This document shows positions 17,788 to 37,464 of a stretch of 37,464 nucleotides of DNA, piece after piece; position 1 is the stretch's first letter, and every line of letters starts with the position of its first letter. The stretch is from Bacteroidota bacterium (GTDB lineage Bacteria > Bacteroidota > Bacteroidia > UKL13-3). A model generated the notes under the pieces. That model did not search any database, was not told the origin of the DNA, and saw only the letters and a program-made list of their open reading frames with translations. A program made the position numbers and the translations under genes. The stretch covers positions 1-37,464 of the forward strand of contig JAIXWI010000040.1 in NCBI GenBank assembly GCA_027491355.1. The letters run 5' to 3'.

Positions 17788-19062
17788 CTACTCAACCAAA
17801 AATGGAAAGTTGGCGTAAGCAACCTGATTGTAAGTGTCTTTGATGTATACAAAAAGCCTGTATGGACCGCTGTTGAAAGGAGCTTTCATTTGGAAGTTTG
17901 TTTCGTTTAATTGTTTCAATTTAATTGCAATGGCCTCAGGTTTTAATTCGGCATCACCACCACTTTTGGTATATATGCTCTCAGGAAGCAATTCCCATTT
18001 TACTTCGAAGTTATTCAAGGGCTTATTGGTAACAAGTTGTATGTTTAACTTTTTACCTTTTGGGATGCTACAATTTTCAGAAGGATTGAGCCCATTTAGT
18101 GTAAATGCTTGAATTTGTACAATAGGGTTTTGGGCTTGTTTTCCTGTCCAAATATTTTCAAGTACTTGCACACTCTCTGTTTTGTTGTTGTCTACAAATA
18201 AGCCATACCAAGTTGGAGTTGTTTCTTGTTTTTGACCCCATAAAAAAGCAAAGGAACCCATACATTGCAAGCTGTCTGCAGCTATTTTGTGCAGGTATCT
18301 GTTTCTAAAAACTTTTGCTTTTTCAGTGGATGATTGTTCTATAGGGCTGCCCCAGCTAGTTTTAGGTACTTCCCAGTGCCCGTTTGGCCCCCATTCAGTA
18401 ACTAAGTAAGGCTTTTGCCAACCGTATAATTTAATTTGATCGGGGAGTGTTTCTATATCACCGTATGTATTTACTCCCAGTATGTCAATACTAGGACAAT
18501 GCTTTTGAATCAATTTTACCTCTGCCACATCAATTCCAGCTGTAACAACACATGTTGGATGGTTTGGATCTTCTGTATGAATCATGGCAGCAATTTTTTC
18601 TACAGCTTTCCAAACATCGTAATTGGTATATGCCAAATCTACTTCATTTCCTACACCCCAAAGTAGCAATGCAGGGTGATTTTTATAGGCATTGACAATA
18701 CTTTTAAATTGAGCCAATTGGTCTTCACAGGCCCATGAATCACTGTAATCAAATCCATGTCTTTCAGGAACCATCCAAAGTCCAAGCATGACGGTTAACC
18801 CTCTTTTTTGGGCATCGTCTAAAACTGTTTTTGCATGTTCAGGCCCCCATAAACGAATGGTATTAGCCCCAGTTTGAACAGCTTCATCTAAAAAAACTTC
18901 GCCCCCTACACCTTTTACATAGTATGGTTTATCGGCTCTTGTGAGTTGGTACCCCAATGCAGGCGTATAACGTATAGCTACTTTAATTGGTTGGGCTTGC
19001 ATTGGAAAGTGAATGAACAATACCCAACAAATGACCTGTAAAAGAAGTTTAAACTTATTCAT
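17788..19062 (-). CDS. Clan GH-A glycoside hydrolase, possibly GH158-like endo-beta-1,3-glucanase
   Basis: 424 aa from the ATG at 19062, which overlaps the GH16 stop by 8 nt (ATGAATAA). A TTG at 19089 is less likely. Signal peptide 1-24 (LLLQVICWVLFIHFPMQAQ). A (beta/alpha)8 barrel spans about 25-310: KGVGGEVF, GANTIRLWGPE, LWGVGNEVD with acid/base E140, LVTEWGPNGHW with nucleophile E223, and AFLWGQKQE. Residues about 312-424 form an Ig-like beta domain. This resembles proteins labelled 'GH2 TIM-barrel'. The length, the C-terminal Ig-like domain and the spacing of the two Glu also fit GH158 as I recall it, an endo-beta-1,3-glucanase family. It has no T9SS tail and is probably periplasmic. It is last in the six-gene operon behind GH16. 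Family number is inference; the hydrolase fold is well supported. Confidence 0.8.
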   Translation of the reverse strand: MNKFKLLLQVICWVLFIHFPMQAQPIKVAIRYTPALGYQLTRADKPYYVKGVGGEVFLDEAVQTGANTIRLWGPEHAKTVLDDAQKRGLTVMLGLWMVPERHGFDYSDSWACEDQLAQFKSIVNAYKNHPALLLWGVGNEVDLAYTNYDVWKAVEKIAAMIHTEDPNHPTCVVTAGIDVAEVKLIQKHCPSIDILGVNTYGDIETLPDQIKLYGWQKPYLVTEWGPNGHWEVPKTSWGSPIEQSSTEKAKVFRNRYLHKIAADSLQCMGSFAFLWGQKQETTPTWYGLFVDNNKTESVQVLENIWTGKQAQNPIVQIQAFTLNGLNPSENCSIPKGKKLNIQLVTNKPLNNFEVKWELLPESIYTKSGGDAELKPEAIAIKLKQLNETNFQMKAPFNSGPYRLFVYIKDTYNQVAYANFPFLVE

Positions 19063-20869
19063 GAAGCTTTTGAATTTTTTTGAAAACAATTTGATTTTGC
19101 GTAATTATTTTGAGTAAGTAAAAGCCTTCAGGAATGCTGGCTAACTCATCTACATAATTTTGCTTGTTGCGATTTTCAAAATAAATTTTTCCATCTAATC
19201 CATACATTGAAATTGATTCAACAAATTGTTCGTTTGAAAATGAAAAAATAGTAGAAAACGGATTTGGATATATGGCTAATGGCTGCGTGTATTTTTGAAT
19301 ATCACCTAATGAATTGCTTCCATTGCAGGGCGATAACTCTAGTGCAATATCATCTATGTAATAAACATCTGTACTGTTACTATTGGGGGCAAATAATATT
19401 ACCAATTGGTCTATGTCTTGTGCAGGTGTACTTACATCTGGCTTTAAAATTAAACTGAATGTCAATTCTTCCCAAGCCCTTGTTTTAGTTGTGATGGCTT
19501 GTAACACACTTCTTCTTCCAGAGGGATAGTCTTTGGTAGCTTTGGCTCTGTTTTCAAAGTTTAAATTGATACTAGTGCCAATAGGTGCTGTTGTATACAC
19601 TTTCATTTTCAGCTTTAATGTTCCATTTTCAAAAGGAAGGGTATTGTTAATGGATTTTGCTTGTATATACAACACATCATAAGCAATGTTTCCGTTTCTG
19701 TAATACCTGTTGCAGAACATACTTGAATTCATACTGTCTTTGGATGGGTTTGTAACGGATGCTCTATAAGTTCCTGTACCTCCAACCCAATAAAAATTTC
19801 TTATACTTTCAGCATCATCAATGATGCCATAACAACTATCTGGTTTAACAATGACTGTTTTGTAAAGCGTTTTGCTCTTGCCATCGTAATTAATAGTTAC
19901 ATTGATACTGTCTGTTTGTTGTCCCCAATTCACCTGTACGCTATTGGTACCATTGCCACTTAAAATTGAAGCACTTGTAGGTACTTCCCAACGGTAAGTT
20001 GCACCGTTTAAGTTGGGTACATAAAAAGTACTTTGCCAAGCGTTTTTCATAAGTACGGAGGGTCCTGAAATAATTGTGTTTTCAAGGTTTTGATACACCC
20101 TTACATAATCAACTACAAAATAGGCTGAATCAGGTGTTGTTGCATCTGGATAACCTAAAAAATTACCGCCTACGGCTAAATTAATCAACCAATGAAAGTT
20201 GCGGTCAAAGGGCCAACTAAAATCTTTCACCATAGACCTGTCTTTGCTTGCATACAATACCCCATCAACGTACCACCTGATGCTGTCTTTTGTCCAATCT
20301 AAACTAAATTCATGGAAGCTATCAGTAAAATTACCTTGGCTCAACGTATAGCTAGATGTGGCGTATTTATTATTGGGTGCATATGCTCCATAATGTATGG
20401 TACCATATATGGTTTTTGGCTCTTGACCTTTACCCTCTAACAAATCAATCTCCCCACTCAGTGGCCATGTTCCCCAATAAGCATCAGATGGTAAAAACCA
20501 AACAGCTGGCCAATAGCCTCGGCCTATGGGTAACTTTGCGCTTACTTTTATAGTGCCACATGTAAAATCAAATTTGTTGAGGCTTCTGATTCTTCCCGAG
20601 CTATAGGTTGAATTCCCTGTTTTTTCTTTTTTAGCTTTGATATTTAGGTATCCGTTTTTTACCTCTATTGCTTCTTTTTTGTACCATTCTAGTTCATTGT
20701 TCCCCCATCCGCATAAATTTGGACATCCATCTCCCAATTGTATTTCCCAGTTATTAGAATCGAGCGTATTGCCATTGAATTCATCAGCCCATCTTAAAAA
20801 TGATTGTGCATGAGTTTGCAGACCGCCTCCAATACAAAACAATAGCGCAATTCGAGTGATTAATTTCAT
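19055..20869 (-). CDS. GH16 beta-glucanase (laminarinase type) with CBM-like domain and T9SS tail
   Basis: 604 aa. Signal peptide 1-21. The GH16 domain (about 25-262) contains WADEFNGNTLD, GWGNNELEWY, PAVWFLPSD and the catalytic SGEIDLLEGKG with nucleophile E140 and acid/base E145; the extra residue in EIDLLE is the beta-bulge form typical of beta-1,3-glucanases. Next come an Ig-like unit (about 267-342), a jelly-roll module ending VYYIDDIALEL (about 345-513) and a YPNP-type T9SS type-A sorting domain (about 530-604, YPNPFSTIFSF ... FYLLKI). The enzyme should be secreted and surface-bound, cutting laminarin-like beta-1,3-(1,4)-glucans. Its ATG follows the upstream stop by 1 nt, and its end overlaps the hydrolase gene. 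Confidence 0.93.
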   Translation of the reverse strand: MKLITRIALLFCIGGGLQTHAQSFLRWADEFNGNTLDSNNWEIQLGDGCPNLCGWGNNELEWYKKEAIEVKNGYLNIKAKKEKTGNSTYSSGRIRSLNKFDFTCGTIKVSAKLPIGRGYWPAVWFLPSDAYWGTWPLSGEIDLLEGKGQEPKTIYGTIHYGAYAPNNKYATSSYTLSQGNFTDSFHEFSLDWTKDSIRWYVDGVLYASKDRSMVKDFSWPFDRNFHWLINLAVGGNFLGYPDATTPDSAYFVVDYVRVYQNLENTIISGPSVLMKNAWQSTFYVPNLNGATYRWEVPTSASILSGNGTNSVQVNWGQQTDSINVTINYDGKSKTLYKTVIVKPDSCYGIIDDAESIRNFYWVGGTGTYRASVTNPSKDSMNSSMFCNRYYRNGNIAYDVLYIQAKSINNTLPFENGTLKLKMKVYTTAPIGTSINLNFENRAKATKDYPSGRRSVLQAITTKTRAWEELTFSLILKPDVSTPAQDIDQLVILFAPNSNSTDVYYIDDIALELSPCNGSNSLGDIQKYTQPLAIYPNPFSTIFSFSNEQFVESISMYGLDGKIYFENRNKQNYVDELASIPEGFYLLKIITQNQIVFKKIQKLHE

Positions 20870-20870
20870 G

Positions 20871-22031
20871 TTATTTGTATTTTTTAATTTGGATATTCCC
20901 TAAAAACACTTCTCCATTTTTATTGAATACACAAATCAATTGTTTAAAATATTTGGTCTGAAAATTTACTTTTTCGAATGGGAAAGCCGTCAATGGAATG
21001 TTAAATGTTTCCCAACCTAAAGAGTCTTTTGTGAGGTATTGTTCACTTAAGTTTATAGATGTTTTTTGACCTTTAAATGATTCAAAACCCAATGCAATTG
21101 TATTTGGATTTCCTTTTACGGTTAGTTCCAAGTATAAATTTTGTAAAGAGTCGGCAAAGCTTGTAGCCTCCCAGTTCTCCCAAGTCATGCCAATTTCGTT
21201 GCTAGTAGGATTATTATCAGCGTCGAATTTTTTTACATGAATGCAAGGTTTCCCATTCAACAGAAGTGTAGTATCAACAACAATGGTTCTGTTTGCAAAC
21301 ACTCCAAAACCCCAATAATTGGCTTCATTGCCATCAAATATTGTTACTGGCAAAATACGGGTTATGGTTTCTCCGTATTTATTTTTAATTGTGTTTGTAC
21401 TTTTTTGTCGTATCAGTTCTATGTTATCAATTAAAAAGTCGCCCGAACCCTGTAATTCAATGTTCAAACTTTTGATAAAACTAAAATCACATTTTGTAGA
21501 ATTGTTGTCATTAAAAAGAGACAGCGGTATGGAGACTTTTTGCCAATTCTCATTGATTGGATAAGCACTCAAATGACTTGATTTTAGAACTGCCGCCGCC
21601 TGTTTTCCGTTGTAATCTTCTAATAAAAAAATCAGTGTTGGAATGAAAGCATTGCCTTGTATACTTCTTAGATCAAAACTCAAGCTCCCATTTTCTATCC
21701 ATTCGGATACATCTTTGGCAGCATAGCCGTTCCATCCAATTCCCATACCCAACCATGGGCAATTTTCTGTTTTGTTCCATTGAATGCGTAAACAACTTTT
21801 ACCAGTTTTTGCAAGTGAGTCAAATTTAGAAATGTTTTTGCAATTGGCTTTTTCTAAGCCCCAAATATCAGTGACATTTTCATCAAAAATAGCTTCTGAT
21901 TGGGTTTGGATTGTTTGTTTGTCAGAGTAAGTATTACCCCATTCATCAACCAGTTCTATGGTGTGTACTGAAATGCCACAGTTCCAATAAAACAAGCTTA
22001 ACAATAAACAATATGTAAGCAATTTATTCAT
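20871..22031 (-). CDS. Exported protein with two tandem carbohydrate-binding-like domains
   Basis: 386 aa from the ATG at 22031, which shares its A with the upstream TGA (TGATG). A TTG at 22067 is less likely. N-terminal signal-like segment (LLTYCLLLSLFYWNCGI). C19 is not in a good lipobox, so lipidation is doubtful. Two related jelly-roll units follow. Unit one (about 45-207) has IFDENVTDIWGLEKA, WQKVSIPLSLF and FLIDNIELI. Unit two (about 229-385) has IFDGNEANYWGFGVF, WETFNIPLTAF and VFLGNIQIKKY. The 'W-x-x-IPL' and final 'DNIEL' strands resemble galactose-binding-like/ExoP-type CBMs. No catalytic residues are seen. Position between the lipoprotein and GH16 suggests glucan capture. No family name can be given with confidence. 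Confidence 0.75.
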   Translation of the reverse strand: MNKLLTYCLLLSLFYWNCGISVHTIELVDEWGNTYSDKQTIQTQSEAIFDENVTDIWGLEKANCKNISKFDSLAKTGKSCLRIQWNKTENCPWLGMGIGWNGYAAKDVSEWIENGSLSFDLRSIQGNAFIPTLIFLLEDYNGKQAAAVLKSSHLSAYPINENWQKVSIPLSLFNDNNSTKCDFSFIKSLNIELQGSGDFLIDNIELIRQKSTNTIKNKYGETITRILPVTIFDGNEANYWGFGVFANRTIVVDTTLLLNGKPCIHVKKFDADNNPTSNEIGMTWENWEATSFADSLQNLYLELTVKGNPNTIALGFESFKGQKTSINLSEQYLTKDSLGWETFNIPLTAFPFEKVNFQTKYFKQLICVFNKNGEVFLGNIQIKKYK

Positions 22032-23071
22032 CAAGGTTGGAATGGCACATTGTATGTAAATGAACAAAAATCAATACCTGCTCTGGTATTGCCAGAAGTT
22101 CCTGCTTTTGCAAGCAATAAAAATTGAGTTGCTATAATTCTGTCTGGGTCTTTTTTGCCTGTACGGTCTACATTTCCAAAACCACCAGAGGTGGAAATTT
22201 TTGTTGCGGAATACGGAAAACTGATCAGCTTCCAACCTGTCCAATTGATGGCAATTCTATAATTGTAAGTGCCCTCTTCTGCAGCTTCGTAGATACCGTT
22301 TTTATTGTCATCTTCTTGAAACTCTATGCTCAATTCGGCTTTGTTATCGCCCCATCCGTATACATATGCATTGAAATATATTTTTTCAGGATTTTCAGTG
22401 GCAAAATTGAAGTACAATCCATTTGAATCAGATTGACTGATTTTAGTAGCCAAGTTCATACCACATAAAAATAAACTGGCAGTAGGGCCATGGTTACCTG
22501 CTAAAACATAATACCTACTTTTTTCAGCAGGCGCAATTCCTTGGAAGTTAACTGCAGTACTATTATAACTTTGTTGACCCTCACTAAATGTATTGTAAGG
22601 TCTTTGTGGACTCTCAAAATCATCTATGAGGATGTTTACTTCAGGTGTGGGCCTGATACCAGTAATGGTAATTGTATCTGAATAAAGGGTGTCTTTTAAT
22701 TGACTAAAAAAAAGACGGGCATAACAAGGTTCATTTCTTCTGAAAAATGGTGCAAACGTTATGGTGCCATTCCAATCAATAGGGTTACTGATTAAATCTT
22801 TTTCATTGCCTGTAAACACTTTTTTAGCACCACTATTGATACCAATAATCTCAACTGTCCAATTTGCTCTGATAGAAAGTTTGGCAGTAAAATACAGGCG
22901 TTCGTTTTTAGAGAAATCAACTGTTTTTTGACTTGCTCTCAAAGGACTAATCACCTTAAAATCTCCAAAAATATCTATTAATTCTGGGCCTTCCATGGCT
23001 GCTTCTTTTTTACAGGAAACAATACCCATTATCAAAAACATGCCACACAGAAATTTAAAGTAATTTTTCAT
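22031..23071 (-). CDS. Surface lipoprotein with C-terminal binding-like domain
   Basis: 346 aa from the ATG at 23071, 1 nt after the upstream TAA (TAA-T-ATG). The longer TTG start at 23140 lies within the preceding gene. The lipoprotein signal is FLCGMFLIMGIVSCKKE with lipobox Cys20. The following KKE fits lipoprotein anchoring, while outer-membrane versus surface placement is uncertain. Residues about 30-140 form an Ig-like domain (SIRANWTVEIIG, WNGTITFAPFF). Residues about 147-346 form a beta-sandwich starting ILIDDFESPQRPYN, with an acidic loop DDNKNGIYEAAEEG that looks like a Ca2+ site, and the strand WTGWKLISFPYS. By position this may be the surface glycan-binding lipoprotein of the locus, standing in for SusD/SGBP. 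I do not recognise a named family. Confidence 0.75.
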   Translation of the reverse strand: MKNYFKFLCGMFLIMGIVSCKKEAAMEGPELIDIFGDFKVISPLRASQKTVDFSKNERLYFTAKLSIRANWTVEIIGINSGAKKVFTGNEKDLISNPIDWNGTITFAPFFRRNEPCYARLFFSQLKDTLYSDTITITGIRPTPEVNILIDDFESPQRPYNTFSEGQQSYNSTAVNFQGIAPAEKSRYYVLAGNHGPTASLFLCGMNLATKISQSDSNGLYFNFATENPEKIYFNAYVYGWGDNKAELSIEFQEDDNKNGIYEAAEEGTYNYRIAINWTGWKLISFPYSATKISTSGGFGNVDRTGKKDPDRIIATQFLLLAKAGTSGNTRAGIDFCSFTYNVPFQP

Positions 23072-23072
23072 A

Positions 23073-24794
23073 TTAAAAGAACAGGTTATAAATGACTGCA
23101 AATCGGTGTAAAGTATAGTTTTTTTCAATATCCAAACCATTGTCTCTACTGGCTTGTTGGTATTGAATTTTTAAACAGGTATTGGCTCCAAATTGGTAGT
23201 TTAAACCACCAATGTAGATGCGCTCTTTGAGCTGAGTTTTGTAAGCTGAAAAGAAGTCTATATCGTTTACCGTGTTTCTGTTGGCAATGAATTCATTGCC
23301 TGAAGCACTGAATAAAATAGCAGCTAGTTCAATTGAAAGTTCATCAAACAACACATAGTTCATACCAGCTTTAATGAATTCGGAGTTTAAGTGGATGCCA
23401 TCAATGGTTTTATTTCCAGCTCTGTGCGTTTCTTGTTTTTTGTAACTCAACTCTAAATCAAATTTCTTTTTACCTCCATACAGTTCATTGAGTTGAATTT
23501 TTGCTTGCGCTCTTAATTCGTTGAATTGCCTTAGTTGGGTGGTTCCTTGTCCGGTAATTTCTTGTTCATTCAGGTAACTTACTTTTAACTGTACACAATC
23601 ATGGAATGGGTGTTTCCATGAAACAGATGCGGTTAATCCTTGTCTGTTTGGTGTAGCAATTCCATAGGGCCTGATGTTTTCGTATTGGGGGTCAAAATAG
23701 CTCAATTGAGGATTTAATTGGGTATTTAAAAAGCCAGGGTCAGTCATGATTTCAATCAAACCGGCAGGCCTTGGTATTTCTCTATTGGTATAATACGGAA
23801 ATTGTGCAGCAATTTGGTCCCAATTGATTCTCCTACTTTGGCTTCCCATGCTTCTGAAACTAGTAGTAGTATAATTCATACCCAATTCAACGGAAATTTT
23901 GCGAGTATTGTTTTTTAGTGCAATTGTTCCGTTCATACTGTTTCCTTCGGGTGTTTTAACCTGAGTTTGGTATTCGTTGTAATTAACCAAAGATTTTCCC
24001 ATTTCAATATCTACTCCTAGAAGCCAATTGGCCCATTGGTATTCATCTTTTAAAGTAATTGTGTGCACACTGTTTTTGAAATGGCTATTGCTAAACATTG
24101 CTGTGTTTTGAACATCAAATGTTTGTGCCATATGATAAGCTACCTGTAGGTGGTTCAATGATTTTGTAGCAACGGTAAAACCACTAAAAAGCCTATCAGG
24201 AACACTGAAATAATCGGTCTGTTTGTTTTTGGTAATTAAGCCAGAAACTTTTACCTGGTTAATGTATTTTTTAAAATCAAATGCTATGTTGGCTTGTGCA
24301 CCTTGTTGTCTCCAAGAGTTGTTGCCATAGAACTTATCGTAATGATTAATTTCTTGAAATAACTGCAATGCTTTCACTTGGTTTTCTCCGGCCTCTTCAG
24401 TAAAGTTATACAAGGTTAAGGGGGTCATTTTTGTGTTTAAATCACCCACTTGAAAGGCTATTTTTTTAAAGAGCAATCCCCTTAAATACAATTCTCTTAA
24501 TTGATAATTAATTCCTGCCCCCCAAAATCCGTTTAAGTCATTTTCAACCCTTGTTGTAGCCTTTATTTCAGTATTTTCATTTGGTCTAATATGGAAACCC
24601 AAATCAAACAGCGCATAACCGCTTTGTTGCTTTCTGGGATTGGTTGTGTCTTGCCTCAAAATATTTCCTTCGATGCCGCTGTTAATCATGTTGAACCTGC
24701 CAGCTCCGTAAAAGTCAATTTTCTTTTCCTGAGCAAACACAAGGTTTGTCAGTAGTAGCAAGACAACAAGAATATTTTTAGTTTTTCTGTTCAT
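23073..24794 (-). CDS. Predicted outer-membrane beta-barrel protein
   Basis: 573 aa from the ATG at 24794, 1 nt after the upstream TAA (TAA-C-ATG). Signal peptide NILVVLLLLTNLVFA/QE. The rest is alternating amphipathic strands with aromatic girdles (ELYLRGLLFKKIAFQVGD, LLGVDIEMGKSLV, KISVELGMNYTT, LTASVSWKHPF, AGMNYVLFDELSIEL, RIYIGGLNYQFG) and ends HRFAVIYNLFF with the C-terminal Phe of barrel proteins. There is no plug, TonB box or CarboxypepD-like domain, so it is not SusC. It may form a glycan or oligosaccharide channel or act in assembly of the secreted GH16. Family unknown. Confidence 0.75.
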   Translation of the reverse strand: MNRKTKNILVVLLLLTNLVFAQEKKIDFYGAGRFNMINSGIEGNILRQDTTNPRKQQSGYALFDLGFHIRPNENTEIKATTRVENDLNGFWGAGINYQLRELYLRGLLFKKIAFQVGDLNTKMTPLTLYNFTEEAGENQVKALQLFQEINHYDKFYGNNSWRQQGAQANIAFDFKKYINQVKVSGLITKNKQTDYFSVPDRLFSGFTVATKSLNHLQVAYHMAQTFDVQNTAMFSNSHFKNSVHTITLKDEYQWANWLLGVDIEMGKSLVNYNEYQTQVKTPEGNSMNGTIALKNNTRKISVELGMNYTTTSFRSMGSQSRRINWDQIAAQFPYYTNREIPRPAGLIEIMTDPGFLNTQLNPQLSYFDPQYENIRPYGIATPNRQGLTASVSWKHPFHDCVQLKVSYLNEQEITGQGTTQLRQFNELRAQAKIQLNELYGGKKKFDLELSYKKQETHRAGNKTIDGIHLNSEFIKAGMNYVLFDELSIELAAILFSASGNEFIANRNTVNDIDFFSAYKTQLKERIYIGGLNYQFGANTCLKIQYQQASRDNGLDIEKNYTLHRFAVIYNLFF

Positions 24795-24795
24795 G

Positions 24796-26790
24796 TTAGA
24801 AAAATAATTTAAGTTCAATGCTCGACTCTGTTCCTTCAATATGGTCTTTGGTAAAACTTTGGTCCTTTTGACTGAATATGCGGTGCCTCATGTACATATT
24901 CATGTTGTCATTCAGTTTGATGTCTAAACCTAAACCATACATTGTTGACTGTTGGTTGACTGGATTGTTCAACACACTTCCAAGTTTACCGTCGTTGTTG
25001 TCGCCTTTGTTCATTTGGTTGTTGCCAACAATTCGTTCGTAACCAAAACTAGTAATCAAACCAACCCCATTTTTAATTTGAAAAATACCATCCAATTCAT
25101 GGTAATGTGTTTGTAGGTAAGCCCTTTTGTTCAATATCGGAATCACTGATAAAAAATTTTGAGCTGAACCGAACGAACCAACGTACAATAAATACCCGGG
25201 TATTCTACCCAATTGAAACCTTTGTTTGAGTTGAATTTGAAGCATGTTATAACCTGTTAATCCCTTGGTCATTCCGTTTGCGTTTGTATCGGTAATTTGA
25301 ACAGTTTGAGAGAAACCTCTGAAATATGAAGTCCAATTGTTGTATGCGCCAATATTGGTGGTAAAGGGTGCAAATCTTGAAAATGGCAAAGCATTGATTT
25401 TATGGCCGAATGCCAATTCATTGCCTATTTGTTCTATTTCTTGGCTAAGCATATTCCCAAAGTTGAATTTAGTGTTGCTTCCTAAATTGATCCAACTGTT
25501 TAAACTCAGTCCTTTTCTGTTATTACTAACCTGCCCTACATCTGTAATGGATCCTGAGAAATTACTGATACCACCACTGTTGGCTGTTACAGCTCCTCCT
25601 TGTTCAAGCGCACTGCTACTTAATACTGTTGTATTGCTACTTAAGAAGTTGCCGTAGTAGTTCACAAAATTTGGACTTAGATAAAAGGCCTCCAATTCAA
25701 CAGGAACCATGAGCCATTTTTTAGGAGTTTTGATTTTTAAGCGAATGGCATTGCCCCAGCCTTTTTTTTGTATTTCAGAATAGAGTTGTCCTCTTCCCAA
25801 TTCGGCTGCTATTTCTAAGCCATCTTTTTCATAATCATAAGAAAAGGTTTGAAGTTGAATGCCTGCTTCTTCTTTTGCCATTGAATCGGGGTATACTTTA
25901 TAATCCATAAATTGTAAACCCAATACGTGGTTGTTTAATTTTTTTCGCAAACGGCCACCAAGTGTATATGATGGAATTTTACTACCTATGATTGCTTGTG
26001 CGGGTGTTGTGCCGTACAACAACCTAAACGATAAGTTGCCCGGAATATCGCTACCATCAACTAACAAACCTTTGAAAGGCTGCATGCCAAATCGCATGTC
26101 TCTGCTAATGTTGCCGTATTCAAAATAATTAGATGCGCGCTCATGGGCTATGGCATTTCCTTCCCAAGGCCACCTTTCAAAAAGACTGAATCTTTGGTAA
26201 CCAATGAAACTACTAAATACCATCCCACTCATGTCTATCCAGTTGATACCCCCCATGTGTGCCGTGTATTTTCCATAAGCAGTCTGAAAACTACCTGTCA
26301 GGTTAATACCTAAGTTTAAATTGATATTGCTGCTACCAGGTTGACCTGAAAAATTGTGATAGAGTGCATAATCCATTCCAACATAAGTTTTAGAAGTTGC
26401 CTGTACGCCAATGTTCATGAGCATCAAGGGTGGATCGCGGTATACATCACCTGTGCCTAAAATATAGGCAGGAGCATTGGCATAAGGATTACCGGGAATT
26501 ACAGTAAATGCCTCCTTTAAGTTCCTATTGATACCAAAAAAACGGTAATAGCCATTTATTTGTATTTTTTTTAAGGGCATACCCTTGAAAGGACTTGAGG
26601 CAATGGGGCCTTGCAGCTCCAAAGAATCTTGGACCTGTGCATTTACATTGATGCTGATTGAAATAACAATCAAGTAAATAATGAAGGCGAATTTGATGAA
26701 TGGCTTTTTCAGAAGCTGATATTTTTTAATTCGAAAAACAATTTCGGAGCAATTTGTCAAATTCTTACACTTTTTTGCCCCAACTTGCAT
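24796..26790 (-). CDS. Predicted outer-membrane beta-barrel protein, first gene of the operon
   Basis: 664 aa from the ATG at 26790. The hydrophobic signal core (FAFIIYLIVISISINVNA/QV) begins only at about residue 33, so the n-region is unusually long. A shorter non-ATG start could exist but none is clear. Barrel strands are visible throughout (IQINGYYRFFGINR, KTYVGMDYALYHNFSG, LNLGINLTGSFQTAYG, YTLGGRLRKKLNNHVLGLQF, MYGLGLDIKLNDNMNMYMRH), ending SSIELKLFF. Loops contain Gly/Ser/Asn runs. No TonB box, plug or enzyme motif. It heads the six-gene unit and is divergent from the regulator, so its promoter is in 26791-26913. Its function is probably outer-membrane transport; this is inference. Confidence 0.75.
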   Translation of the reverse strand: MQVGAKKCKNLTNCSEIVFRIKKYQLLKKPFIKFAFIIYLIVISISINVNAQVQDSLELQGPIASSPFKGMPLKKIQINGYYRFFGINRNLKEAFTVIPGNPYANAPAYILGTGDVYRDPPLMLMNIGVQATSKTYVGMDYALYHNFSGQPGSSNINLNLGINLTGSFQTAYGKYTAHMGGINWIDMSGMVFSSFIGYQRFSLFERWPWEGNAIAHERASNYFEYGNISRDMRFGMQPFKGLLVDGSDIPGNLSFRLLYGTTPAQAIIGSKIPSYTLGGRLRKKLNNHVLGLQFMDYKVYPDSMAKEEAGIQLQTFSYDYEKDGLEIAAELGRGQLYSEIQKKGWGNAIRLKIKTPKKWLMVPVELEAFYLSPNFVNYYGNFLSSNTTVLSSSALEQGGAVTANSGGISNFSGSITDVGQVSNNRKGLSLNSWINLGSNTKFNFGNMLSQEIEQIGNELAFGHKINALPFSRFAPFTTNIGAYNNWTSYFRGFSQTVQITDTNANGMTKGLTGYNMLQIQLKQRFQLGRIPGYLLYVGSFGSAQNFLSVIPILNKRAYLQTHYHELDGIFQIKNGVGLITSFGYERIVGNNQMNKGDNNDGKLGSVLNNPVNQQSTMYGLGLDIKLNDNMNMYMRHRIFSQKDQSFTKDHIEGTESSIELKLFF

Positions 26791-26913
26791 ACTACACAGA
26801 TTATGTACCTACATCATTGGTACTACAAAAAAAATCAAGTTGCTGAAAATAAAAAGCTTAAACCTGATAATAAAATGTATATTACAATCCAATTCTTATA
26901 AAATTCAATAGGG

Positions 26914-29793
26914 ATGCGTTTAAAAAAATCATTCATTGGTTTGTTATTGGGCTGTTTTTTTATGGCAAATCAATTGCTATATGCAGCATTGGTTCAAACC
27001 AATCCTATGGTTTTTAATTATCCAAAATCTGTCACAACAGCTGGTACACAAACTTGGGATATCACACATGCTTCCAATGGCCTAATGTTCTTTGCTAATA
27101 ACGATGGTTTGCTGGTTTTTGATGGCAAAGATTTTACTAAATACCCATTGCCAGCTAAATCTATCTTGCGTTCCATTTATTACGATTCTTTGACACAAAG
27201 GGTGTATGCAGGTGGTCAAAACGAAATTGGATTTTATGCATTTAACAACAATGGTAAGCTCAATTTTACTTCTCTTGCGCATTTATTGCCAAATACACTG
27301 AAAGGTTTTGAAGATGTTTGGTCAATTAAGCCACATGCTGGAAAAGTTTATTTTCAAACCAGCAGCCAATTGTTTGTATACAGCGGTGGTCGAATACAGT
27401 TAATGAAAATAGGCTCAAGACCACTGGAAAACAGTTATCAATTTAACCAAAAACTGTATATAACCGATATTGATGGAACCATTTATACAATTGATAACCA
27501 GAATAGTGCAAGTATTCTAGCTTTAAAAACAGGTTTACAAATTTCTTCTATTTTACCATTTAAGCAAAATGAGTTGTTACTGTGCACCTTTAAAGAAGGT
27601 TTGTTTACATTCAAGGATAACCAGATTCAAAAATTACCTGTTAATGATGCTGCACTAAAAAATGCCAGTGTTTACAAGGCCATTCCATATCAGGATCATT
27701 TTTTACTGGCCACCAACCGTTCGGGTGTGTTTTTTTTGAACGAAGCGGGTGTTCCATATAAAAACCTCAATTTGAAAGAAGGCTTGCAAAACAACAATGT
27801 GCTCTCTGTGCATGTTGATCCAAATTTGAATGTATGGTTAGGTTTAAACAATGGCATAGACCTGGTTAGGCTCAACTACCCTTATGGTCATATCCTTCCG
27901 GATGATTTGTTAAAAGGCACAGGTTACGCTATGGTTGAATTTGGGGATGCCTATTATTTTGGAACAAACAACGGATTATACTACCGTGCAAAGAATAACT
28001 TTTCTTCAGATGCCTATACGTTGGTTGCCAATTCTGAGGGTCAGGTTTGGTCTATACAAGTCATAAACGGGAAGTTATTTATGTGTCATCATGAGGGTCT
28101 TTTTGAGGTAACTCAGATGCGTGCACAAAAGATTCTAGACTGTAGAGGGGCATGGAAAATAAAAGCGTTATCAAAATATCCCGGAAATTTTATTTTAGGT
28201 ACTTACAGTGGAATCAGCCTTTTAAAATGGGAAAACGCTTCGCTCATTCCTCAACAAATCTATACAAGGTTTAAAGAGTCGAGCCGTTTTCTAGAAGAAG
28301 ATGGTGATGGCAATATTTGGGTGGGTCATCCTTACAAAGGCATATACCAATTAAAGTTAAGTGCTGATTTATCAAGCATTTTGAATGTTAAATTGTACGG
28401 CAAGAAGCAAGGATTACCAGCAGAAACAGAAAATTATGTTTTTAACACCGACCTTGGTCTTACCTTCAATACCCCATCTGGAATATACAGTTACAATGAA
28501 CAAACCGACAGATTTGAATTGGCTAAACTTCCCCAAGATTTCATAGATTCCAAGTTGGTTTATAAACGTTTTATCAATGGTAGTAATGGTAATATTTGGT
28601 ACATAACCACAAGCGAAATAGGTTGCTTCAAGCCTACTTATAATGGCGTTAATTATGGTTACTCTAAAATTAAATTGCCACTTTTAGAGCAAAATTTGGT
28701 TGGAGGTTTCGAGTTTTTATACGAGACAGGCAACCATGAAGTATTTATTGGCACTGAAATTGGTTTTGTTACCATTGATTTAAAAAAATTGAACCAGTTT
28801 TCTGATTTTAAGCCGCAAATTATGTTTACTTCTATTCATAGTTTATCACATCCTGACTCGGTTTATTTCAATTTTTTAAGTAACCCACTTACTGCTGTTG
28901 TATTAGAAGACAAATCGCTTGAAATTAATTTTAGTTCACCCAATGGTTATTGTTACAAAGACCTTGTTTTTACTACCTATTTAGAATCATGGGATAAGTC
29001 TTGGACTCCATGGAAAAGTGCTCAATCAAGAGAGTTTAGCAGGTTATCATATGGAACTTATCATTTTCATGTAAAAGCAAAATACATGGGAAAAGAAGGA
29101 GCAGATACTGTATTAACGATTGTTATCAAAGCACCTTGGTATTGGTCAATGGTAGCTAAAATTGCCTATATCTTTGTGTTGTTGGTTTTAGTGATTTTCA
29201 TTGGATTCTTTCCGCAACGCTTGGTATGGAAAAAGGCTACCAGAATCATAGCAGAAAAGGAAGACCAATACAAAAACCAAACAGCCTTGTTGACCCGTGA
29301 AAAGGAACTGCAAGAAAAGGAGTTGATTCAATTAAAGAACCAACAATTGGAACGCGAATTAGAACACCAAGCGCGCGAACTAGCCTCATCAACCATGCAC
29401 ATTGTTCAAAAAAGTGAAATGTTGTTGAGCATCAAAGAGAAGCTCAGAAGAATAGCTCAAGTGAGCAACGATCCTAAAATCAAACCTGAATTGTCTGAGC
29501 TCATTAAAAACATTGACAAAGATGCGTTGATTGACAAAGAATGGGAAAAATTTGAGGTTTACTTTAATAGCATTCATGATCGGTTTACTAAAATACTCAA
29601 AGAAAAGTTTCCTCAACTCAATGCCAATGACATTAAGATGTGTGCGTATTTACGAATGAACTTGTCTTCAAAGGAAATTGCTTCTATTTTAAATATTTCA
29701 GTGCGTGGTGTAGAAATAAGTAGGTACCGACTCAGGAAGAAAATGAATTTAGTCAGTGGCATTAACTTAACAACCTATTTATCTGATTTGTAA
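26914..29793 (+). CDS. One-component transmembrane regulator: beta-propeller, Y_Y_Y, LuxR-type HTH
   Basis: 959 aa. Signal peptide 1-25. Residues about 40-650 are a Reg_prop-type beta-propeller, with blade motifs such as NNNVLSVHVDPNLNVWLGLNNGID and DGDGNIWVGHPYKGIYQL (given here in parts). Residues 668-738 are a Y_Y_Y (triple tyrosine) domain. A single TM spans 748-767 (IAYIFVLLVLVIFIGFF). A coiled coil spans about 775-845, and the LuxR-type HTH about 899-945 (DIKMCAYLRMNLSSKEIASIL, RGVEISRYRLRKKM). There is no histidine kinase or receiver, unlike hybrid two-component systems of glycan loci. Signal binding outside would thus act directly on DNA, as in SusR-like proteins. It is divergent from the six-gene operon, its likely target. 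Confidence 0.9.
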   Translation: MRLKKSFIGLLLGCFFMANQLLYAALVQTNPMVFNYPKSVTTAGTQTWDITHASNGLMFFANNDGLLVFDGKDFTKYPLPAKSILRSIYYDSLTQRVYAGGQNEIGFYAFNNNGKLNFTSLAHLLPNTLKGFEDVWSIKPHAGKVYFQTSSQLFVYSGGRIQLMKIGSRPLENSYQFNQKLYITDIDGTIYTIDNQNSASILALKTGLQISSILPFKQNELLLCTFKEGLFTFKDNQIQKLPVNDAALKNASVYKAIPYQDHFLLATNRSGVFFLNEAGVPYKNLNLKEGLQNNNVLSVHVDPNLNVWLGLNNGIDLVRLNYPYGHILPDDLLKGTGYAMVEFGDAYYFGTNNGLYYRAKNNFSSDAYTLVANSEGQVWSIQVINGKLFMCHHEGLFEVTQMRAQKILDCRGAWKIKALSKYPGNFILGTYSGISLLKWENASLIPQQIYTRFKESSRFLEEDGDGNIWVGHPYKGIYQLKLSADLSSILNVKLYGKKQGLPAETENYVFNTDLGLTFNTPSGIYSYNEQTDRFELAKLPQDFIDSKLVYKRFINGSNGNIWYITTSEIGCFKPTYNGVNYGYSKIKLPLLEQNLVGGFEFLYETGNHEVFIGTEIGFVTIDLKKLNQFSDFKPQIMFTSIHSLSHPDSVYFNFLSNPLTAVVLEDKSLEINFSSPNGYCYKDLVFTTYLESWDKSWTPWKSAQSREFSRLSYGTYHFHVKAKYMGKEGADTVLTIVIKAPWYWSMVAKIAYIFVLLVLVIFIGFFPQRLVWKKATRIIAEKEDQYKNQTALLTREKELQEKELIQLKNQQLERELEHQARELASSTMHIVQKSEMLLSIKEKLRRIAQVSNDPKIKPELSELIKNIDKDALIDKEWEKFEVYFNSIHDRFTKILKEKFPQLNANDIKMCAYLRMNLSSKEIASILNISVRGVEISRYRLRKKMNLVSGINLTTYLSDL

Positions 29794-29842: not shown

Positions 29843-32404
29843 TTAATCAACAATGAAAGGTATTGTCTTTACTTGATTTTCTGATTCTACTTTCAAGAAA
29901 TACATTCCTTTGTTCAATGTTTTGATTTGAATTGGATACAAAGTTTCAGATCCATTTGTAGTGTTGTTTTCTACCAGCTGAACCTGACCAATTGTATTGT
30001 AAATGGCTATTTTGCTGTTTTTACCTAAACCTTGTTCTGTTTGTATGTACAATACTTCGTTTGCAGGATTTGGATATACTCTCATTGTTCTATTTGCAAT
30101 ATCAGTCAATCCGGTTGCATCGCATATAGTACAAGTGTTCCAGCAATAAGCTCCTACAGTCATTTCAGCTTCACCATTAACATCAATGAATCTGTTGGTG
30201 TAATTTCCAACCGTTTTTGTGCATGGATCTGATGAACTGAAAGACTCTTGGTCTTCCCAATTTCCAATAGTGAATTTGAAATCATATGAACCGCTATCAA
30301 GATTCAGTGTAGTTGCATAAATATTGTTTCCAATGCTATCCATTTTTGTACAATCACCACACCAACCGTTAAAAGTTCCATTTAAGGTTACACCTTTGCT
30401 CATATCGCCCACATAATTTTTCATGTTAACTTTGAAGGTTACTTTGGTTTTAGGCAAAGAGCTGGCACAATCCGTACAACTCTCCCAACAAACCAAAGGC
30501 AAGGTGTCGTTTTCTTTGTTTGCCAACAGGTATCTATTTGTGTAACCAGATTTTGTTGTTGTGCAAGAAGAGCCCTCTTTTAAAATTTCTTGTCTTACCC
30601 AGTTTCCTACTACATACTTGTAGTCATAAGACGAATCTTTATCTAGTAATAAAGTAACTGTCCAAATATTAGTGTTTGGAATTTTTGTCATTGGTGTACA
30701 AGCACCACACCAGCCATTGAAAGAACCATTTAAGGTAATTGTATCAGTATCTGCAGGCTTGTTTTTAGACATATCTACTCTAAAGGTCACAAAAGTTTTG
30801 GTAGATGGTGCACCTGATCCACCAAATGCAATGTCATCGAAATAATATGTTTTTTCACCAGCTATTGCACCTGTAACTCCAAAATTAAAGAATACAGATA
30901 GTTTTTGATAAGTATTGGAATAGTTAATGGGTGCTGTTCCGTTTGCGTGGTTTGCAAAATCAAATTCTAAAGTTTCCCATTCGTTTGTTTTGGTAGTTTT
31001 AGCCTCTGTTTCTACACTAATTTGACCATTGTTAGGGTCTTCAGCTTTCATGCGAACCGAAATTCCAGCATCAGGTGAATAAACGCGCATGGTCATTTTA
31101 CTTTCACCGCTTACAAAAGGAATTGCCTTTGTAAAACCTAGTGCAGTTCCTACTGTAGTACCAGCCCATAACTCAGCACCAGCCCCTTTAATGACTTTAG
31201 CAACCATGTTGTTTCCTTGGTTTGGATCGGCAGCAATGCTGCTTGTGTTGCCACCAAAGTCAATCATGGTATAATCTGTGTTTACCTTGTCAAATGTAAC
31301 AGGTAATGAAATTTGTTCGATGGTTGGTGTTACAAATTTGATATCATCTAAGAAGTATGTTTTTTCACCGGCAGTAGCACCTGTAGTTCCAAAATTGAAG
31401 AAAATAGATAGTTTTTTATAAGTGTATGCTAAATTAATGGGAGCTGTTCCTGTTGATTGTTTTGCAAAGTCGAATTCTAGTGTTTCCCATGCATTTGATT
31501 TGCTTGTTATTACGTCAGTTTCAACACTTTTGTTAGCATCGTTAGGGTCTTCAACCTTTAATTTAACCACAATGCCGCTATCTGGTGAGAAAACTTTCGT
31601 TGATAGCTTTGTTAAACTGTTGGTAAAAGGAATTGCACTTGAAAACCCAGCATTTGTTCCTACTGTAGTGCCAGCCCATAATTCAGCACCAGCCCCTTTG
31701 ATAATTTTACAAACCATGTTTCCTTGACTGGTTGGATCAACAGCTAAACTACTGGTGTTTCCACCAAAATCAATCATGGTGTAATCAACCGTATTGTTGT
31801 CAAAAGTTACAGGTAAGTTAATTTGACTTAATGCAGCAGGTACAAAACGAATATCATCACAGTAATAAATCTTTTCACCAGCTGTAGATCCAGTTACTCC
31901 AAAATTGAAGAAAATAGACATTTTCTTGTAGCTGTATCCAAAGTTGATAACTGCTGTTCCAGAAGATTGGTTAGCAAAGTCAAATTCAATGGTTTCCCAT
32001 GAATTACTTTGAGTAGTTCTTTGATCTGTTTCAACACTTTTACCAGCATCATTTGGGTCTTCTACTTTGAGCTTGACTACAATGCCACTGTCTGGAGAGT
32101 AAACTTTAACAGAAATTTTTGTTGAACCTTGCGCAAAAGGAATTGCCGAAGTAAAACCAGCATTTCCACCGATAGTTGTTCCAGCCCATAATTCAGCGCC
32201 GTTTGTTTTAGTAAATTTAGCTACTTTGTTAGTTGCATCTGTAGGGTCTGTTGCTACAGTGCTTGAATTCCCTCCAAAGTCTGCTAAAGTGTAAGTTAAA
32301 TTGGGATTGTCAAACGTAACAGGAAGTTCAATTTGTTGTGCAAAAGACAAGCTTGGAGCCACAAGCATAATCAACGCACAAATAACATGTGTAATTTGTT
32401 TCAT
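29843..32404 (-). CDS. T9SS-sorted protein with three CBM-like repeats and two starch-binding-like modules
   Basis: 853 aa. Signal peptide 1-23. Three repeats start with LPVTFD at residues 27, 197 and 367, exactly 170 residues apart, each containing DFGGN, GAELWAGTT, VYSPD(S/A)GI, EDPN, WETLEFDFA and ending IFFNFG ... GEKTYY-DDI. These are jelly-roll sugar-binding-like units that often accompany GH16 laminarinases in Bacteroidota. Two modules of about 113 residues (537-648, 653-763) resemble CBM20/48-type sheets (LNGSFNGWCG, LNGTFNGWCG) and share conserved Cys (WCGACT, CWESCTDC; WCGDCT, CWNTCTIC), probably disulfide-bonded. A YPNP T9SS type-A tail spans 772-853. No hydrolase motif, so a binding or adhesion protein. 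It converges on the regulator and may belong to the same regulon. Confidence 0.85.
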   Translation of the reverse strand: MKQITHVICALIMLVAPSLSFAQQIELPVTFDNPNLTYTLADFGGNSSTVATDPTDATNKVAKFTKTNGAELWAGTTIGGNAGFTSAIPFAQGSTKISVKVYSPDSGIVVKLKVEDPNDAGKSVETDQRTTQSNSWETIEFDFANQSSGTAVINFGYSYKKMSIFFNFGVTGSTAGEKIYYCDDIRFVPAALSQINLPVTFDNNTVDYTMIDFGGNTSSLAVDPTSQGNMVCKIIKGAGAELWAGTTVGTNAGFSSAIPFTNSLTKLSTKVFSPDSGIVVKLKVEDPNDANKSVETDVITSKSNAWETLEFDFAKQSTGTAPINLAYTYKKLSIFFNFGTTGATAGEKTYFLDDIKFVTPTIEQISLPVTFDKVNTDYTMIDFGGNTSSIAADPNQGNNMVAKVIKGAGAELWAGTTVGTALGFTKAIPFVSGESKMTMRVYSPDAGISVRMKAEDPNNGQISVETEAKTTKTNEWETLEFDFANHANGTAPINYSNTYQKLSVFFNFGVTGAIAGEKTYYFDDIAFGGSGAPSTKTFVTFRVDMSKNKPADTDTITLNGSFNGWCGACTPMTKIPNTNIWTVTLLLDKDSSYDYKYVVGNWVRQEILKEGSSCTTTKSGYTNRYLLANKENDTLPLVCWESCTDCASSLPKTKVTFKVNMKNYVGDMSKGVTLNGTFNGWCGDCTKMDSIGNNIYATTLNLDSGSYDFKFTIGNWEDQESFSSSDPCTKTVGNYTNRFIDVNGEAEMTVGAYCWNTCTICDATGLTDIANRTMRVYPNPANEVLYIQTEQGLGKNSKIAIYNTIGQVQLVENNTTNGSETLYPIQIKTLNKGMYFLKVESENQVKTIPFIVD
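30809..32338 (-). repeat. Three tandem 510-bp coding repeats
   Basis: In-frame repeat units of 170 codons begin near 32326, 31816 and 31306 within the 853-aa protein gene. Units two and three are closest at the protein level (GAGAELWAGTTVGT identical). The equal unit length points to duplication by recombination rather than independent domain gain. Confidence 0.85.
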
Positions 32405-32503: not shown

Positions 32504-32525
32504 CCACTACTACACCACTACTACA
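32504..32525. promoter_or_regulatory. Perfect 11-bp tandem direct repeat, possible operator
   Basis: CCACTACTACA occurs at 32504-32514 and again at 32515-32525 with no spacer. It lies 33 bp upstream of the -33 element of the minus-strand promoter, where an activator would bind. The period of 11 bp places both copies on one DNA face. The core TACTACA also occurs twice in the divergent region of the glucan operon. Confidence 0.4.
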
Positions 32526-35347: not shown

Positions 35348-37464
35348 ATGAAACAACATTTACAATTATTGATTTGCTTCCTGTTTTTTGGATTCAATGT
35401 TTTTTCTCAAAACATCCCTTTTTATGTTCCCACAAACGGCTTAGTGGGTTGGTGGCCATTCAATGGCAATGCCAATGATGAAAGTGGAAATGGGAATCAT
35501 GGGGTGCTTCAAGGTGGTGTTACTTCTACAACTGATAGGTTTGGGCAAAACAATGCCTTTTTATTTAATGGTAGTCTTGTTAATCCATGTTATATCTATG
35601 GTTCAGCATCAACTTTTCCTGTAAATGATAGGACAGTTTCTTTATGGTTTTATGCAACTGATATTGGAACTACTTTTGCTGGTAGATCTTTATTAGGTTA
35701 TGGAGGTGATTATTGTGGTCAATCATGGCTTGAAATTATAGATAATTATGATAAGGCACCATTGAACTGTATTGAAGTGCAAGGACATTGCAGGAATCAA
35801 GAAGTGTACTATGATTATGGAATTAATCACCCAAACTCAAACTGGCATCACCTAGTAATTACAACTAATCAAAACATTGGAACTAATATTTATTTAGATG
35901 GTTTAATTGTTAAAAATTTAAATGTATATGTAAACCAAACAATCGTATCTGGTAAAATTTTTGTTTTTGGTGGAGCAGTTACTCAAAGTGGTTTGGGTTT
36001 TCATTATGATGGTAATGCTTATCCATTTAAAGGCAAACTCGACGACATTGCCATTTATAACCGTGCTTTAACGCAAGCTGAAATTACTGCTTTATATAAT
36101 GGCCCATCTTATACCATTACTGCAAGTTCAGGAAGCAATGGTAGCATTTCAACCTCAGGAATTACCACATTGAATGCAACAGCAACTCAACGCTATACTT
36201 TTACTCCAAATACTGGATATTTAGTTGACAGTGTCATCGTTGATGGCACAAAAGTGGATTCATTACAAGGCTATACTTTTAGTAATGTATCAGCACACCA
36301 TAGCATCCGTGTTACATTCAAAGCTTTGAACATCCCTTCTTATGTTCCCACTAATGGTTTAGTGGGTTGGTGGCCATTCAATGGCAATGCCAATGATGAA
36401 AGTGGGAATGGGAATCAACCAACTTTTTTGAAGGGTATTACCTTTTCAAAAGATAAAATGGGATATCAAAACAAAGCAATTTTTTTGAACGATTCATCTT
36501 TCATTAGATTTAATTCATTAAAGAATGCTTTCAACACAAAATTAGAAGGTAAAATCCCATTAACCATTTCATTTTGGGCACAAACAAGCTATCAATTGAC
36601 TAATGGAATTTTATCAATAAACGCTGATACAAGCTTACCTATAGGTCACCCAAATACTGGACATGTTTTTGAAATTGATATAAATTCTACACAGGCTTGT
36701 TATGCTGTTGGGCCTTCTTTTAGAGCGGTTTCACATGTAGGAACAGCAAATTTTTCAAATGCAATAGATTCTACTTGGCACCATTACACATTAGTATTTG
36801 GAAGTGAAAATAATTTCATGCATAAGAATATCAAATTTTATGTAGATGGTCAATTATATTCAAATCTGGGATGTGCTCACAATTGGTATTATTGGGAATA
36901 CTATCTGCCTAAAATGGAACTATTTATTGGTGCCAATGTTGCAAGCGCAATCAATGGCTCACTCGATGATATTGCAATCTATGACCGCGTATTGACACAT
37001 TCTGAAATTCTAGCACTGTATAACGGAGCATTTTATATTACTGCCAGTTCAGGTGCAAACGGCACCATTAACCCATCAGGAAGCACCTCTGTAAATTCAG
37101 GTAGTAACCAAACATATATTTTTACCCCCAACTCAGGTTACTTGATTGACAGTGTTTTTGTAAACGGCGTTCAAGTACCAACTGCTAGTTCTTATACTTT
37201 TAACAATGTAACAAGTAATCAAACTATTCGCGTAACCTATAGGAGTTTGGCGGCGGCTAAAGCCGCCGCCAATATCTGCTCAAACGACACCCTTGTTTCA
37301 ACAGTAAACTTACCAGCATTCAGCAATGTCAGAGCCACCACTTACTATTCTAACATTTACTTGTTTAACCAAAACAATACAAACAATGCACATAAGTACA
37401 ATGTAAATGACAGAAAATATAGTGCTATAGCAAACAAACCAACAGCATGTATTGAATGTGGCGT
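35348..37464 (+). CDS. Secreted double-LamG - Kelch protein, 3' partial
   Basis: ATG at 35348. I followed the frame to the window end without a stop (705 full codons). Signal peptide FLFFGFNVFS/QN, nearly identical to the upstream paralog. Two units of 918 bp (starting 35411 and 36329) each hold a LamG domain (GLVGWWPFNGNANDESGNGN ... LDDIAIYNRALTQAEI; LDDIAIYDRVLTHSEI) and a bacterial-repeat domain (YTFTPNTGYLVDSVIVDG; YIFTPNSGYLIDSVFVNG). The second is followed by the palindrome (LAAAKAAAN) and the beginning of a Kelch domain. The protein thus has one more LamG unit than its neighbour. A C-terminal FISUMP is likely by paralogy but not seen. Extracellular binding is inferred. Confidence 0.88.
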   Translation, partial: MKQHLQLLICFLFFGFNVFSQNIPFYVPTNGLVGWWPFNGNANDESGNGNHGVLQGGVTSTTDRFGQNNAFLFNGSLVNPCYIYGSASTFPVNDRTVSLWFYATDIGTTFAGRSLLGYGGDYCGQSWLEIIDNYDKAPLNCIEVQGHCRNQEVYYDYGINHPNSNWHHLVITTNQNIGTNIYLDGLIVKNLNVYVNQTIVSGKIFVFGGAVTQSGLGFHYDGNAYPFKGKLDDIAIYNRALTQAEITALYNGPSYTITASSGSNGSISTSGITTLNATATQRYTFTPNTGYLVDSVIVDGTKVDSLQGYTFSNVSAHHSIRVTFKALNIPSYVPTNGLVGWWPFNGNANDESGNGNQPTFLKGITFSKDKMGYQNKAIFLNDSSFIRFNSLKNAFNTKLEGKIPLTISFWAQTSYQLTNGILSINADTSLPIGHPNTGHVFEIDINSTQACYAVGPSFRAVSHVGTANFSNAIDSTWHHYTLVFGSENNFMHKNIKFYVDGQLYSNLGCAHNWYYWEYYLPKMELFIGANVASAINGSLDDIAIYDRVLTHSEILALYNGAFYITASSGANGTINPSGSTSVNSGSNQTYIFTPNSGYLIDSVFVNGVQVPTASSYTFNNVTSNQTIRVTYRSLAAAKAAANICSNDTLVSTVNLPAFSNVRATTYYSNIYLFNQNNTNNAHKYNVNDRKYSAIANKPTACIECG
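35363..35502 (+). repeat. 140-bp repeat, copy 2
   Basis: Partner of 32821-32960. It covers the signal peptide and the LamG start of the second paralog. Confidence 0.9.
36329..36417 (+). repeat. 89-bp repeat, internal third copy of LamG start
   Basis: It begins AACATCCCTTCTTATG, as at 32869 and 35411, and repeats the LamG opening inside the second gene. Here the bacterial-repeat domain joins LamG directly without a palindrome. Confidence 0.88.
37160..37464 (+). repeat. 305-bp paralogous segment, copy 2
   Basis: Partner of 33655-33959; cut by the window end. Confidence 0.85.
37247..37272. repeat. In-frame GC-rich palindrome, copy 2 (loop AA)
   Basis: Same 12-bp arms as copy 1 (37247-37258 and 37261-37272), but the 2-bp spacer is AA, so the whole element is the reverse complement of copy 1. 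It encodes LAAAKAAAN instead of LAAALAAAN. Both orientations keep the frame open. Confidence 0.92.

Follow-up and report, generated by a model that had tools for sequence, protein, structure and literature searches.

Gene organisation of the locus

The stretch of DNA analysed here (the window) comprises 37,464 nucleotides of a Bacteroidota genome (contig JAIXWI010000040.1, assembly GCA_027491355.1), and the system in question occupies positions 17788-29793. It is probably a locus for the use of beta-1,3-glucan of the laminarin type, in which a surface lipoprotein and two outer-membrane barrels, unrelated to each other and without plugs, stand in for the SusC/SusD pair. The first-pass annotation of this DNA described six minus-strand genes with junctions of +1, +1, -1, +1 and -8 nt and a divergent regulator; the six open reading frames (ORFs) and the plus-strand regulator gene are indeed found at these positions, and the junctions recomputed from the signal-peptide starts at 24794, 23071, 22031, 20869 and 19062 have the same values. 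The proteins (lengths in amino acids, aa) include glycoside hydrolases (GH), carbohydrate-binding modules (CBM) and sorting tails of the type IX secretion system (T9SS):

24796..26790, minus strand: barrel A, a 664-aa ORF that opens the operon, predicted outer-membrane beta-barrel lacking a plug
23073..24794, minus strand: barrel B, ~573 aa, predicted plug-less outer-membrane beta-barrel resembling porins (OprD/Occ, AlgE, chitoporin), with ~22 strands predicted
22031..23071, minus strand: surface lipoprotein with a lipobox Cys, assigned to no Pfam family, which completes the invariant core of three
20871..22031, minus strand: glycan-binding protein, double CBM30-like, in the place taken by CHU_1279 in the cluster of Cytophaga hutchinsonii
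19055..20869, minus strand: GH16 laminarinase-type endo-beta-1,3-glucanase with PKD_6 and a T9SS type A sorting tail
17788..19062, minus strand: GH158 (clan GH-A) beta-1,3-glucanase with a signal peptide and no T9SS tail
26914..29793, plus strand: one-component sensor-regulator with a Reg_prop propeller, Y_Y_Y, a transmembrane segment and a LuxR-type helix-turn-helix (HTH)

Glycoside hydrolases (GH16, GH158), binders at the surface (CBM30-like protein, lipoprotein) and a regulator thus lie together at one locus. The GH16 protein matches PF00722 (2e-19), followed by PKD_6 and then the T9SS tail (TIGR04183); its closest structures are laminarinases (PDB 3azx, 2e-55) and the catalytic motif EIDLLE is intact at residue 140. 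The product of the last gene of the operon, previously recognised as a GH-A hydrolase, can be placed in GH158 by PDB sequence match (9oro, E 1e-90; 6pal, 3e-70), with the clan GH-A motifs GNE and TEWG intact. The double-CBM protein matches CBM30 of Pfam in two stretches (1.3e-18) and, weakly, structures 1wmx and 2c24. In the lipoprotein the lipobox Cys is invariant and is followed by a conserved Gly-Pro motif. Neither the lipoprotein nor either barrel gave a match in Pfam, NCBIfam or PDB sequence searches, and PDB profile searches with the three returned no credible match. In most relatives a 746-aa gene, which encodes a GH3 enzyme, sits between the CBM30 and GH16 genes (for example, L045:3978-6212).

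Conservation of the core and absence of SusC/SusD

Of 64 genomes of the window's own order, 27 carry the core of barrel A, barrel B and lipoprotein, which is also found in many further families of Bacteroidota. Barrel A itself was found in those 27 of 64, in 6/395 genomes of the phylum by single-sequence search, in ~48/395 genomes of its own class by profile search and in 10/245 of a second class; barrel B occurs in the same 6/395 and in barrel A's own-order genomes (one barrel A genome lay outside that draw). We read 68 loci, 25 (most of ~20 kb) and 43 further ones, of which about 20 from the own order and some 40 others, from several families and two classes, display the synteny. Most own-order loci keep barrel A, barrel B, lipoprotein, CBM30-type protein, GH3, GH16 and GH158, and the core is kept in nearly all. 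Since this order recurs in dozens of genomes, it is more than chance. The synteny thus extends across families and classes, and the barrels, which are patchily distributed, always paired and located beside glycan enzymes, are not housekeeping proteins. A plasmid search with both barrels gave no match.

The first-pass view that the complement lacks SusC/SusD holds for the window, which contains neither, and the sole PF07980 SusD of the window genome (2.44 Mb, 99.99% complete) lies on another contig (C34) beside a 1026-aa plug protein. In none of the 68 loci does the operon include SusC or SusD. Models of SusC, SusD and TonB-dependent transporters (TBDTs) gave zero matches in the 43 further loci, an incomplete test, as each model stands on one or two sequences (SusC 1, SusD 2, TBDT 1); in the first 25 loci they match only in two genomes. 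One of these (G395) alone has a separate nearby susC-susD unit of its own, within 15 kb and on the opposite strand, past the regulator and starting ~1 kb after the CBM gene, and the other (G406) has an 871-aa TBDT past the GH158 gene. TBDT plug domains near barrel A are confined to these two cases and lie outside the operon in both.

Another order carries the barrel module in 10/10 genomes, most with several copies, and among the eight of its genomes tested PF07980 SusD was found in 0/8 (other SusD families were not searched and TBDTs not counted). As an order of universal carriers lacking PF07980 SusD, it offers a natural test bed for the replacement of SusCD. Its genomes include G682, G734, G759, G614, G781, G803, G652 and G709, and the loci L123, L124, L126, L129, L131-L137 and L142-L144.

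These distributions bear on the alternative that the locus is a canonical laminarin polysaccharide utilisation locus (PUL) that has shed susCD and borrows the single SusCD of the genome on contig C34. The window genome does hold one SusC/SusD pair, and GH16, GH158 and GH3 together are a usual enzyme set of SusCD laminarin PULs. Yet dozens of genomes, spread over several families and two classes, share the same SusCD-free order, PF07980 SusD is lacking in eight genomes that carry the module in one to several copies, and the core also accompanies other enzyme sets, which makes borrowing very improbable.

The two outer-membrane barrels

AlphaFold models of both barrels, built from 21-row alignments, reached a mean confidence (pLDDT) of 78 for barrel B and 65 for barrel A. 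The model of barrel B shows ~22 strands beginning at residue 41, soon after the signal peptide, with the plug absent, and no match to Plug or TonB_dep_Rec domains was found in either barrel or their relatives. In VIA-align the top structures for barrel B are OprD/Occ porins, AlgE and chitoporin (Z 15-17, root-mean-square deviation 4.5-6 A, ~300 residues), and those for barrel A are general porins and FimD with, lower down, a SusC barrel (Z 13-15); no single porin family stood out in the Foldseek and VIA lists. Because the TM-scores are low, we keep the claim to both proteins being, as modelled, plug-less outer-membrane barrels, and nothing narrower. Kinship between barrels A and B is not detectable (hhalign probability 7%), and their trees are congruent (Mantel r 0.87, 0/500 permutations).

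The regulator and its candidate operator

The regulator matches GerE (1e-5), Y_Y_Y and Reg_prop in Pfam, with no match to a kinase or receiver domain, and in NCBIfam only, and weakly, the BT3442 family. Alignment of upstream regions revealed a conserved element, an 11-bp direct repeat (TGWWGTAG-N3-TGWWGTAG). The pattern TGTAGTANYRATGNWGTAG occurs twice in the window, both times on the minus strand, without mismatch at 26809-26827 and with one mismatch at 32507-32525, where 0.52 matches would be expected at <=3 mismatches. The features concerned are:

26809..26827, minus strand: candidate operator TGTAGTACCAATGATGTAG, a direct repeat of 11 bp upstream of barrel A
32507..32525, minus strand: candidate operator TGTAGTAGTGGTGTAGTAG, ~103 bp before the 853-aa CBM gene
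29843..32404, minus strand: 853-aa secreted CBM/T9SS protein with three CBM4/9-like repeats, two CBM48/AMPK-CBM-like domains and a T9SS tail

Across the 68 loci the looser pattern TGWWGTA-N4-TGWWGTA is present in 22/22 with the regulator gene and 0/45 without it, the one additional match being L051, whose contig ends before the regulator, and the repeat always lies 60-161 bp upstream of a gene of the system. As the pattern was derived from own-order loci and loosened after four others had been seen, the cleanest test comes from L062, L111 and L112, the operons of which open with GH16 rather than barrel A; there the repeat precedes that GH16. The repeat is thus associated with the regulator, which may well bind it. 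Because the CBM gene at 29843-32404, absent from the first-pass annotation, shares this operator repeat with the operon, it would belong to the same regulon.

The ATG at 26790 falls inside the conserved element upstream of the operon, and relatives, which read ATG-stop at this place, have not retained it as a start codon; the true start of barrel A is therefore probably downstream. At 26770-26805 there is a further upstream block (like GTAGTATGNNAGTTGGGG), present in nearly all own-order loci, that may be a third half-site, a leader or a start region. Beyond the CBM gene the window holds two tandem paralogous proteins of the Laminin_G_3/Kelch/Fib_succ_major type with near-identical stretches (32806-35295 and 35348-37462), both containing the same GGCGGCGGC-type palindrome (33744 and 37249).

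Loci without the LuxR-type regulator carry others, of the NrtR/AraR-type Nudix, LacI or extracytoplasmic function (ECF) kinds, and hence the transport core is steady and the regulator is swapped. An ECF gene adjoins the divergent relative L058, which has both a Nudix-type and an ECF regulator. The 240-260-aa genes in the loci lacking the LuxR-type regulator had been taken for ECF sigma factors, wrongly; that of L130 is an NrtR/AraR-type Nudix by Pfam, and the others were read by eye.

Association of the core with other enzyme sets

The core is not confined to glucanases. In divergent copies, whose enzyme families were confirmed by Pfam and whose substrates are read from those families, a GH18 chitinase is encoded in L129 and L142 (with NagB in L129), GH9 in L131 and L134, and T9SS-tailed GH13 with GH97 in L135. 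In the barrel A tree of 62 loci the beta-1,3-glucan loci and five loci of unassigned enzymes fall on one side, and the GH9, chitin and starch copies, all from the one order in which 10/10 genomes carry the module, form supported groups on the other. The core is thus modular, its barrel clades going with different enzyme sets, and the related sets with enzymes for cellulose, chitin and starch suggest that polysaccharides can be consumed by a second, general route. The stretch L135:2144-12550, where the barrel module stands beside the T9SS-tailed GH13 amylase and GH97, is a candidate SusCD-free starch locus. An automatic 'starch' label for L140, which has GH158, was an over-call. At L128:4373-19108 a GH158-type barrel locus is flanked by several genes that look by eye like sulfatases, perhaps for a sulfated glucan.

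The enzyme complement also addresses the notion that the operon makes or remodels a beta-glucan of the cell's own, as in exopolysaccharide export, instead of consuming one. The exporter barrel AlgE ranks with the folds closest to that of barrel B, but the operons showed no glycosyltransferase, and their enzymes are endo-hydrolases, GH3 beta-glucosidase, chitinase, GH9 and amylase, with NagB and sugar symporters adjoining. Synthesis was rejected on the finding that the relatives' 746-aa gene is GH3, not a glycosyltransferase, and we regard this explanation as extremely improbable.

A model of glucan capture and uptake

It seems, then, that some Bacteroidota degrade, capture and take up beta-1,3-glucan of algal or fungal origin by means of a barrel pair and not of SusC/SusD. 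Judging from the domains, the T9SS-exported GH16 and the T9SS-tailed CBM protein would cut and hold the glucan at the cell surface, where the lipoprotein and the double CBM30-like protein would catch the released oligosaccharides and hand them to the barrels, through which these would cross to the periplasm without a TonB plug. GH158, together with GH3 in most relatives, would complete the cleavage in the periplasm, as their signals imply, and a symporter would bring the sugar into the cell; an SSS symporter gene lies in the operon of G045, and an MFS gene adjoins the locus of G416. Finally, the Reg_prop/LuxR membrane regulator would sense the sugar and bind the TGWWGTAG repeat where it precedes the CBM gene and the operon. 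The first-pass proposal of beta-1,3-glucan capture and uptake by a different outer-membrane route is thereby supported as regards the substrate, by GH16 and GH158, and the conserved SusCD-free synteny; passage through the barrels is the part that we infer.

A different role for the barrels has to be weighed here, namely as a platform anchoring, presenting or exporting surface enzymes and binders, the sugars entering via general porins or an unlinked TonB-dependent receptor. Such a role accords with the lowered cell-associated beta-glucosidase activity of Cytophaga hutchinsonii after loss of CHU_1276 or CHU_1277 (PMC5553014), with the large numbers of TBDTs in these genomes and with the consideration that a plug-less barrel of 22 strands is a large hole unless a partner fills it. 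Nevertheless, the GH16 and CBM genes encode T9SS tails and hence have their own export route, anchoring needs one barrel whereas two unrelated ones are strictly paired, the barrel clades track enzyme class, and CHU_1276 is described as involved in glucose uptake. We consider the platform unlikely, though the least so of the three alternatives.

Several observations count against uptake of beta-1,3-glucan through the barrels in place of SusC/SusD. The model of barrel A is poor (pLDDT 65) and the Foldseek TM-scores are low, such that 'porin-like' means little beyond 'barrel'. The window genome encodes 19 plug domains, and TonB-dependent receptors are present in every genome tested, so another receptor could import the sugar. 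Among SusD families, absence was scored by PF07980 alone. The operon has no GH3 in L046 or in the window's genus (window junction 20869-20871, L042, L057).

More broadly, the Bacteroidota might possess a second general polysaccharide importer, without kinship to SusC/SusD, in which two plug-less barrels and a surface lipoprotein work together as a single machine, made in variants for beta-1,3-glucan, cellulose, chitin and starch, and by which SusCD has been wholly displaced in one order or more; we put this forward tentatively, as close to an even chance. PUL finders look for SusCD, which is taken to be the hallmark of polysaccharide use in Bacteroidota, so that, if a SusCD-free module is widespread, users of laminarin, chitin, cellulose and starch have been overlooked.

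Comparison with known systems

The regulator resembles the SusR-like and hybrid two-component system (HTCS)-type sensors of Bacteroidota in its Reg_prop propeller, Y_Y_Y, membrane segment, DNA-binding domain and divergent position, but differs in having no kinase or receiver match, a LuxR-type HTH and only the weak BT3442 match. OprD/Occ, chitoporin, LamB and AlgE are, like barrel B, plug-less barrels and among its nearest solved folds (Z ~14-17); they have 16-18 strands as against the ~22 predicted, and no sequence match, the likeness to the OprD/Occ and AlgE families being one of fold only. Unlike porins of the OprD or AlgE type, barrel B is a member of an obligate pair accompanied by a surface lipoprotein. 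The feature of TonB-dependent transporters, an N-terminal plug inside a 22-strand barrel, is absent from both barrels. With the canonical laminarin/beta-1,3-glucan PULs of Bacteroides the window locus shares the enzyme set, two surface glycan-binding lipoproteins and the job, but where these have SusC/SusD and a TonB plug, it has two other barrels.

The closest precedent is chu_1276-chu_1280 of C. hutchinsonii, an 'atypical PUL' for cellulose (PMC12016534), a type also present in C. aurantiaca and Sporocytophaga myxococcoides. That cluster encodes two outer-membrane proteins, a surface glycan-binding protein (SGBP) of two beta-sandwiches, a 375-aa two-CBM SGBP-B-like protein and an endoglucanase, and is needed for cellulose use, the organism's own SusC/SusD being dispensable (PMC12016534); CHU_1280 is a GH9 (PMC6247017). 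The window has the same order of barrel, barrel, SGBP lipoprotein, two-CBM SGBP-B-like protein and endo-glucanase, but with GH16 and GH158 beta-1,3-glucanases instead of GH9 and cellulose, a CBM30-type binder, and a Reg_prop/LuxR regulator with its operator in place of an ECF sigma factor. Three bridge loci, L131, L134 and L136, are homologous to the window (barrel A 352-359 bits, barrel B 413-424, lipoprotein ~200-210) and have as fourth gene a 380-aa two-domain protein and as fifth a GH9, like CHU_1280; the aromatic residues of L134 (Y89/F92/F180, Y255/F258/F349) parallel those published for CHU_1279 (W89/F92/F180, Y253/F256/F343). By analogy, and with homology traced through the bridge loci only rather than the CHU sequences, the window locus very probably works like the C. 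hutchinsonii cluster and is kin to it. The first-pass term 'undescribed system' was accordingly too strong in view of this precedent (PMC12016534), although what we describe is a variant of a barely described kind: the SusCD-free gene order has already been published for cellulose, and the window locus is new as its beta-1,3-glucanase version. The uptake of cellulose products by C. hutchinsonii without SusCD can thus be approached by comparison, there being dozens of relatives, a core of known make-up and a testable operator.

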